NCBI RefSeq assembly: GCF_010131535.1 | Contig: NZ_WUBS01000002.1 | Coordinates: 248,001 to 312,000 of the forward strand | Direction: 5' to 3' | DNA from: Acerihabitans arboris | GTDB taxonomy: Bacteria > Pseudomonadota > Gammaproteobacteria > Enterobacterales > Enterobacteriaceae | Length of the DNA: 64,000 nucleotides | Shown here: positions 53,656 through 54,448 of the stretch, piece by piece | How positions within the stretch are numbered: the first letter of the stretch is position 1 | How the letters are laid out: each line of letters begins with the position of its first letter | Made by a program: the position numbers and the translations under genes | Notes under the pieces: model-generated | The model's database searches: none | Told to the model about the DNA's origin: nothing | What the model saw: the letters and a program-made list of their open reading frames with translations, nothing else

Positions 53656-53976
53656 TTATCCCCGTTTCTGCATATCGGACGCGTCTTCTTCCCCTTCATT
53701 CGACGCCTCGTGGGAACGATTCGATGCCGAATGGGAGGTGTAAAGCACCATCAACGCGGCGGCAAACTCATCATCCACCGTATAGAAATAGCACTCCGGC
53801 ACGTCGAGGATTCGGGCAAACGCGCAGCAGGTCTCAAAGTTGGGACGGTAGATCCCATTTTCATACTGACTGATCCTGGAACGGGCGGTGGACTCATCGA
53901 TACCTGCCATGACCGCCAATTTTTCCTGTGTCAGCTTGGCCCGATGCCGGGCTTCTCTCAGGCGTTTTGGAATCAT
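53656..53976 (-). CDS. XRE-family helix-turn-helix regulator
   Basis: A 106-residue protein. Residues ~3-62 form an XRE (HTH_3) domain: IPKRLREARHRAKLTQEKLAVMAGIDESTARSRISQYENGIYRPNFETCCAFARILDVPECYFYT. The last ~30 residues are acidic and polar (SNEGEEDASD). It resembles phage-repressor-like single-domain regulators. The ATG at 53976 has almost no ribosome-binding site. Upstream lie two tandem 19-bp inverted repeats over a divergent promoter, its probable operators. Confidence 0.9.
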   Translation of the reverse strand: MIPKRLREARHRAKLTQEKLAVMAGIDESTARSRISQYENGIYRPNFETCCAFARILDVPECYFYTVDDEFAAALMVLYTSHSASNRSHEASNEGEEDASDMQKRG

Positions 53977-53999
53977 CTTAATACATTAATAATGTTAAC

Positions 54000-54028
54000 T
54001 TGATAATCTGTTTAGCATCACTTAACAT
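54000..54028 (+). promoter_or_regulatory. Promoter divergent from the XRE gene
   Basis: TTGATA (54000-54005), 17-base spacer, TAACAT (54023-54028). Operator A covers the spacer and most of the -10; operator B begins at the expected transcription start near 54035. Confidence 0.5.
54009..54027. promoter_or_regulatory. Operator A for the XRE regulator
   Basis: Near-perfect inverted repeat TGTTTAG-CATCA-CTTAACA (6 of 7 base pairs), with the same half-site and 5-base gap as operator B. Confidence 0.6.
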
Positions 54029-54034
54029 CACAGT

Positions 54035-54053
54035 TGTTTAGAATTACTAAACA
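54035..54053. promoter_or_regulatory. Operator B for the XRE regulator
   Basis: Perfect inverted repeat TGTTTAG-AATTA-CTAAACA, centred 26 bases from operator A. Two equal sites in tandem suggest cooperative binding by a dimeric repressor. Confidence 0.65.
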
Positions 54054-54085
54054 CCTAATAAGAATAGAACAAACATCAGGGTTAG

Positions 54086-54117
54086 GGCCGGCATTTGCCG
54101 GCCTGATTTGGTGTTTT
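54086..54117 (+). terminator. Hairpin with delayed T-run
   Basis: Perfect 7-bp GC stem with ATTT loop, followed after nine bases by TTTTT. The T-run is further from the stem than usual, so strength is uncertain. Confidence 0.45.
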
Positions 54118-54370
54118 TGCTAACGCCATAATTCCACAGCATTAAATCCTGTTGCTCTCCTGAAAATCCCGTGTTTTTAAGAATTTCCTCGGTGTCTAGC
54201 CCTGCGGAATCGCGTCTGTTAACACCCGAAAATCGCCTGCCGCCTTAGGCGGAAGCGATCTGGACATCCGGCGGCGAAAAATTTTGCTCAATACGCGGTT
54301 TTGTACACTTGATCACAGAGGCCCGGACAAAATATCGCCATGCTGAAGACGTCAGAAAAAAGAGGTGGCT

Positions 54371-54448
54371 ATGTATATCGAAGACATCGAAGTGGTCACG
54401 GCGATAGCCGTTATCATGATCATCCTGATCTGGAACCTGGCTGCGTAA
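54371..54448 (+). CDS. 25-residue predicted membrane protein
   Basis: A short frame beginning MYIEDIEVVTAIAV and ending MIILIWNLAA. An acidic N-terminus (four acidic residues in the first seven) is followed by one hydrophobic helix of about 17 residues and no basic residue at all. A strong ribosome-binding site, AGAGGT, sits six bases ahead of the ATG, which is the main reason to believe it. It does not match any small enterobacterial membrane protein I recall (such as KdpF, CydX, MgtS or YnhF). It could be a peptide regulator or a type I toxin-like peptide, but it lacks the usual positive tail of the latter. Neighbours are the XRE control region and a GntR gene. Confidence 0.55.
   Translation: MYIEDIEVVTAIAVIMIILIWNLAA

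Follow-up and report, generated by a model that had tools for sequence, protein, structure and literature searches.

A controller-like XRE repressor with paired operators over the promoter of a predicted short noncoding RNA in Acerihabitans arboris

What does an XRE repressor control when the divergent promoter under its operators appears to lead into a short, untranslated transcript? The question is raised by a locus of Acerihabitans arboris that lies within the window, i.e. the 64,000-nucleotide stretch of DNA analysed here (contig NZ_WUBS01000002.1, positions 248,001 to 312,000). A preliminary description of this locus had proposed an XRE repressor with two operators covering the -10 element and the start site of a divergent promoter, and had suggested that the rightward product is an RNA of about 85 bases and not a protein. 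The operators, two 19-bp palindromes 26 bp apart from centre to centre, were found where they had been claimed, and so were the repressor reading frame and the promoter (Table 1).

Table 1. Features of the XRE locus, in window coordinates.
Feature	Position	Strand	Remarks
XRE/HTH repressor gene	53656-53976	minus	106 aa, HTH_3 E 4e-12
Class of the XRE protein: C.Csp231I/C.EcoO109I controller			residues 1-77 against PDB 3lfp, E 2.2e-18
Sigma-70-type promoter TTGATA-17-TAACAT	54000-54028	plus	for the rightward transcript; register kept in relatives
Operator 1, TGTTTAGCATCACTTAACA (TGTTTAG-N5-CTTAACA)	54009-54027		in promoter spacer/-10; pairwise identity 0.926, 6 genomes
Operator 2, TGTTTAGAATTACTAAACA (TGTTTAG-N5-CTAAACA)	54035-54053		over expected start site; pairwise identity 0.856, 6 genomes
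Predicted short noncoding RNA	54035-54112	plus	start ~54035, end ~54110-54118, both ends inferred
[CT]CAGGG motif	54076-54081	plus	just 5' of terminator stem; in 6/6 genus genomes and the Serratia/Yersinia plasmid versions
GC hairpin, terminator-like, GGGCCGGC-ATTT-GCCGGCCT	54085-54104	plus	8 pairs

Controller-type XRE proteins are the timers of restriction-modification (R-M) systems, and the window XRE protein is, judged by its sequence, of the C.Csp231I/C.EcoO109I class of such controllers. It also matched PDB 4o8b (BswR) over residues 1-77 (E 3.5e-12) and was recognised by the PADLOC Control_protein model (2.5e-19). An R-M partner was sought and rejected, there being no endonuclease or methyltransferase gene among the eight neighbouring genes scanned between 49.6 and 60.0 kb, which are of MFS, FoxA-like receptor, GntR, solute-binding, ABC, RidA-like, acetamidase and DUF4440 type. 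Because the class match and the likeness of the operators come without an R-M neighbour, we take the protein to be probably controller-like in its mode of action, and its role as an R-M controller to be only putative. Distant XRE relatives in our set of upstream regions have TACTAAG-N5-CTTAGTA sites, which fits the CTAAG-N5-CTTAG specificity of the controller class. Relatives of the protein were present in 60 of 392 family genomes (E <= 1e-20), and named relatives of the window genome include Sodalis sp. dw_96 and a record labelled Martelella alba, the XRE gene of which groups with that of the window; on this basis the genus is called Sodalis-like here. With the Yersinia-type protein (L140) as query, 413 of 72,556 plasmid records were matched, 204 of them conjugative. 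One of 50,697 phage records was matched, weakly, and an origin as a phage gene was rejected on these grounds.

We then asked how usual this arrangement is within the XRE family, using 104 unique upstream regions from 135 XRE starts in chosen loci, i.e. a subset of all matches. A divergent Ner-like gene lay within 900 nt in 71 of the 104, other loci (L047, L036 and kin) had a different divergent ORF instead, and no Ner-like match was found within 900 nt at the window locus. Palindrome pairs at exactly 26 bp passed the score at 42 of the 71 Ner-linked loci and at 16 of the remaining 33, as compared with 3 of 520 shuffles. Of the loci with this operator pair, 29 of the 42 Ner and 15 of the 16 non-Ner ones also have a TTG-N20-TWnnnT promoter at the same register. 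Taken alone the window promoter is at chance level (3 promoter-like sites found against 2.5 expected), and the weight of the promoter evidence rests on conservation and not on the sequence by itself. The preliminary description had called a repressor guarding an untranslated RNA an unusual module; this holds for the RNA output only, as paired operators and promoter are common in the family and a Ner-like product is the usual one.

The operators also bear on what else the repressor could regulate. TGTTTAGN5CTWAACA was found nowhere else in the 5.6-Mb genome at 0 or 1 mismatch, and matches with up to 2 mismatches were at background level (20+24 against 18+22 in the control). On plasmid pWVU-005-1 there was no other site at 0-1 mismatch beyond the XRE-linked pair, and pYE854 has one further site, at 69465, which departs from the relaxed operator pattern at one position. 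As no other genomic operators occur at up to 1 mismatch, the RNA is the likely output and the only candidate effector in sight.

The rightward product is predicted to be a noncoding RNA of about 75-85 nt ending at the GC hairpin. Between the expected start and the hairpin there is, as had been claimed, neither an ATG nor a GTG with a ribosome-binding site, and TTG-started frames are broken by length differences between genomes. A tiny peptide starting at an ATG (MQYARKHQG...) in the g26/Serratia plasmid version was rejected by eye, since its frame is lost in the genus and has no ribosome-binding site. At the 5' end of the predicted RNA, operator 2 would form a hairpin of its own, and the fold of 54034-54118 gave a z of -5.64 relative to shuffles. 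All seven regions folded were stabler than the shuffle mean (z -2.95 to -5.64). In another set, of four folds, those of L133 and L177 ended before the terminator and are uninformative on it. No Rfam family matched the window above its gathering score. The usual marks of a small RNA, i.e. an own promoter, a noncoding body and a terminator, are present as sequence features and in comparison only, and the T-run of the genus is weak.

Across all six genomes of the genus the operators, their 26-bp spacing, the promoter, the [CT]CAGGG motif and the hairpin were all kept, so that the poor conservation of the repeats that would have spoken against the preliminary description was not seen, and operators, hairpin and XRE locus occur together in each. 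In one of these genomes (G005, L035 8135-8400) there is a frameshift close to the start of the XRE gene, operators, motif and hairpin being intact; it could reflect decay or an assembly error. Mean pairwise identity was 0.578 in the linker (54054-54074), 0.840 over 54075-54084 and 0.823 in the hairpin, and fell past the hairpin to 0.657 in the tail, 0.295 at 54112-54118 and 0.407 and 0.303 further on. The conserved block stops at the hairpin, and the ends of BLAST matches agree. The preliminary description had given the hairpin a T5 tail: the hairpin is there and is conserved, but the T5 (54114-54118) lies 10 nt past it, in the unconserved stretch. The tail right after the stem is GATTTGG or GATTTTG, and the T-run in genus members is short, 2-4 T. 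Because this run is short and the T5 unconserved, termination at the genus hairpin may be leaky.

Genes downstream of the unit differ among genus members, being GntR in the window and L034, DUF4440/SnoaL-like in L031 and L032, and a third gene in L033 and L035. All have the same direction and lie more than 500 nt from the hairpin, and the left-hand neighbours likewise differ. Together with the stop of conservation at the hairpin, these three differing genes argue against read-through into 54371 being what the promoter serves, in keeping with the original proposal. Position 54371 is the start of a 25-aa ORF, MYIEDIEVVTAIAVIMIILIWNLAA (54371-54448), which has a ribosome-binding site (AGAGGTGG), is 84% identical in L031, and resembles a small membrane protein with no relation to the RNA.

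Outside the genus, a noncoding version with [CT]CAGGG, hairpin and usually a T-run, and with no clear gene after the promoter, was found in S. silvae, in three g26 genomes, in G350 and on pYE854-type and Serratia plasmids. Its hosts include conjugative plasmids, both of Serratia and of Yersinia, and another genus, one with plasmid-sized contigs. The motif lay within 60 nt of operator 2 at 10 of the 16 non-Ner loci having an operator pair and at 0 of the 42 Ner loci having one, and it was absent from all 71 Ner-linked loci. Five of the six non-Ner operator-pair loci without it have a divergent ORF (by eye), and the sixth is Regiella plasmid L134, with CCAAGG. The motif turns up in 7% of random 60-nt stretches of the same composition, so single occurrences prove little and it is the recurrence that carries weight; its invariance outside the genus in the motif alignment is partly built in, because the non-genus rows were chosen for having it. 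The spacing of operator 2 and motif varies between loci. Longer T-runs follow the hairpin in these relatives, namely T6 in pYE854 (L173), T8 in Serratia silvae (L052) and T4-T5 in several Serratia plasmids, and E. coli pM1-5_30 and its kin (L177) have CCCAGGG, then a weaker GGTC...GACC stem and T6. These plasmid versions, with the conserved repeats, promoter and hairpin of the genus, support the prediction of an RNA of about 85 bases in place of a protein. Judged by eye, the complement of the motif did not recur near the starts of genes on the three plasmids searched.

Pairing in the hairpin was maintained as its sequence diverged. In an alignment of 13 sequences (A5, from which L140 and L188, present in A4, were excluded as their hairpin was unalignable), 98.1% of cells were paired and five of the eight pairs had changed on both sides, and none of 500 shuffles scored as high. 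The six genus members by themselves gave one compensatory pair, which 77 of 500 shuffles equalled. Two models of the hairpin were used for searches. Model R1 (hairpin part, genus only) had matches at E <= 0.01 in 22 of 392 family genomes; five of these were the sampled genus members (E <= 1.9e-7), all others had E >= 0.0011, and the best non-genus match (L105) was rejected as a gene-end terminator. Model R2 (the 13 sequences) matched in 65 of 394 genomes of the order, with true matches in the window genome (1.9e-9) and S. silvae (2.7e-6); among the next matches (7.3e-6 and weaker), the six loci inspected had gene-end terminators or similar hairpins with no XRE-like match and were rejected. Applied to 35 loci, R2 missed or barely scored the Yersinia and rep_cluster_312 versions, because the hairpins differ there. 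Among the loci inspected, neither model found the hairpin away from such an XRE gene.

On a tree with 106 XRE proteins the RNA-linked state required six changes, at least three of them forced by well-supported branches; the tree has about 90 columns and poorly resolved branches, and one of its 15 'srna' labels (L138) is wrong, being a chance TCAGGG without a hairpin. Because of these six changes, the RNA form would either be ancient, Ner having replaced it more than once, or have moved from branch to branch.

How does the unit compare with known systems? In the available excerpts of PMC4321490 and PMC4824078, the C.Csp231I/C.EcoO109I class binds CTAAG-N5-CTTAG pairs and the Csp231I C gene has a nearly leaderless transcript. 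The window resembles this class in its paired operators upstream of the regulator's own gene, each made of two 5-bp inverted repeats round a 5-bp centre (PMC4321490, in the part available). The protein is homologous over residues 1-77, autoregulation from paired sites would be shared, and the window XRE gene has no clear ribosome-binding site where the Csp231I transcript is nearly leaderless. The half-site core differs, however (TTTAG/CTAAA in the window, CTAAG/CTTAG in the class), as do the gap between the 15-bp sites (11 bp, 54026-54036, versus 18 in Csp231I and 25 in EcoO109I) and the centre-to-centre distance (26 bp versus 33 and 40 bp). In addition, the controller class is found with R-M genes, whereas in the window there are none among the scanned neighbours and the guarded divergent product is a predicted RNA.

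A second comparison is with the regulation of rsmZ, which is an RsmA-binding RNA. According to the excerpt of PMC3985676, in which the code 4o8b appears, BswR of Pseudomonas aeruginosa acts at a site from -226 to -208 relative to the start of rsmZ and increases its transcription; BswR is thus an XRE protein related to that of the window whose reported target is a small-RNA promoter. BswR activates from this upstream site, whereas the window operators lie on the -10 and +1 and the RNA adjoins the repressor gene. The Mu-like c repressor and Ner form divergent switches, and most XRE relatives resemble them in having a divergent Ner-like gene, often under the same type of operator pair; the window differs in having the predicted short RNA in place of such a gene. 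SGI1 reportedly encodes a small RNA. Plasmid pNDM-HK encodes sRNAs too (PMC5880898, excerpt). The likeness is that of short RNAs on conjugative or mobilisable elements, but the partial descriptions of them name no adjacent XRE controller with paired operators, and it is by these descriptions, not by sequences, that they are set apart.

Restriction controllers, XRE/Ner switches, plasmid sRNAs and an XRE protein raising an sRNA (BswR/rsmZ) are therefore already known. What would be new is a repressor of the controller class with a divergent promoter of its own that apparently makes only a short RNA, no XRE-sRNA unit of this kind being described in the openly licensed papers searched.

The reading that we prefer, with a probability of about two in three, is that the locus is an autoregulated, controller-like repressor gating a small RNA of about 75-85 nt, derived from a plasmid and domesticated on the chromosome. 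The repressor, a small dimer of the C.Csp231I class, would bind both operators on the divergent promoter, controlling its own gene too, as known controllers do, and shutting the rightward promoter when bound at both sites. When the protein is scarce, e.g. just after entry of a plasmid into a cell, as for controllers, the RNA would be made. The [CT]CAGGG before the terminator would serve as a pairing or protein-binding site, and the RNA, not a protein, would be the output of the switch and act in trans. The unit would be of plasmid type, as on Serratia and Yersinia conjugative plasmids, and kept on a Sodalis-like chromosome; the plasmid setting suggests a role in transfer, replication or establishment, and the chromosomal unit, which sits between ordinary uptake genes, may have another use. 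Conservation of operators, promoter, motif and hairpin, the noncoding nature of the interval and its tie to the XRE gene are established by comparison, and from these we infer transcription, repression and action in trans. In one lineage of chromosomes and on several conjugative plasmids alike, a controller relative that lacks an R-M system has the predicted RNA as its only evident output. Should this RNA be made and be active, plasmids would carry an RNA switch that has had no name so far, and the idea is testable, as the regulator has solved relatives and operators that can be read directly.

The same features could be those of a remnant promoter, whose divergent gene (Ner-like or other) has been lost and whose hairpin is a protective terminator stopping stray transcription, the RNA itself being functionless. 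The presence of a Ner-like gene at the same place in most relatives, the resemblance of the hairpin to ordinary gene-end terminators such as that at L105 and the weak T-run of the genus would all be expected on this explanation. We nevertheless consider it unlikely, for conservation in motif and hairpin almost reaches that of the operators, unlike in the linker and the downstream DNA, and several distinct branches of the XRE tree, as well as plasmids that differ in transfer type, share the [CT]CAGGG-hairpin layout.

Instead, a downstream operon might have the hairpin in its 5' leader as a regulated terminator that is read through under some condition. This is how two IncX-like plasmids (L183 and L187) could be understood, where the promoter and a CA[CT]CAGGG lead into genes for a NusG-like antiterminator and a T4SS, and in the window both the 25-aa ORF and the GntR gene lie downstream in the same direction. 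For the genus such a leader is quite improbable, given three different, distant downstream genes in six members with little conservation in between, and in pYE854 the unit is followed by a convergent gene of the Abi family. Still less credit is due to the idea of a DNA-level element, i.e. a palindrome that acts as a further protein-binding site or insulator and gives no stable RNA. The related BswR does bind a hairpin-like GC palindrome, ACCCGGCGTTCGCCGGGT (PMC3985676, excerpt), but the variable distance between operator 2 and motif, the changes of sequence under maintained pairing, and the T-runs of relatives on the RNA side, as for RNA terminators, make this reading very improbable.

Beyond the locus itself, we put forward, with more doubt than belief, a family, so far undescribed, of small RNAs that share a [CT]CAGGG core and are gated by a repressor, encoded with controller-class XRE proteins on enterobacterial conjugative plasmids and domesticated on Sodalis-type chromosomes, in which the RNA replaced or preceded the Ner-type output and has plasmid or host genes as its targets in trans.

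Several variants of the arrangement were encountered. On the IncX-like plasmids L183 and L187, where the CA[CT]CAGGG lies in the leader of the NusG-like gene with no adjoining hairpin, the NusG-like/T4SS operon is apparently transcribed from the promoter under XRE control. In Serratia silvae (L052 1346-2398) a putative plasmid replication initiator gene (named by eye) follows the RNA in the same direction, at a distance of some hundreds of nt. The window genome has a second XRE gene (L022, G000:C6), 43% identical to the first, with a divergent TTGACG-17-TAACAT promoter (1786-1814) followed about 65 nt later by a T8 hairpin without CAGGG (1881-1906), possibly another short terminated RNA. Tandem XRE pairs are frequent (L037, L038, L048, L070, L074, L076, L078, L082, L083, L085 and L087), each copy having its own 26-bp operator pair, and the rightward promoter of the second copy runs antisense into the 3' end of the first.
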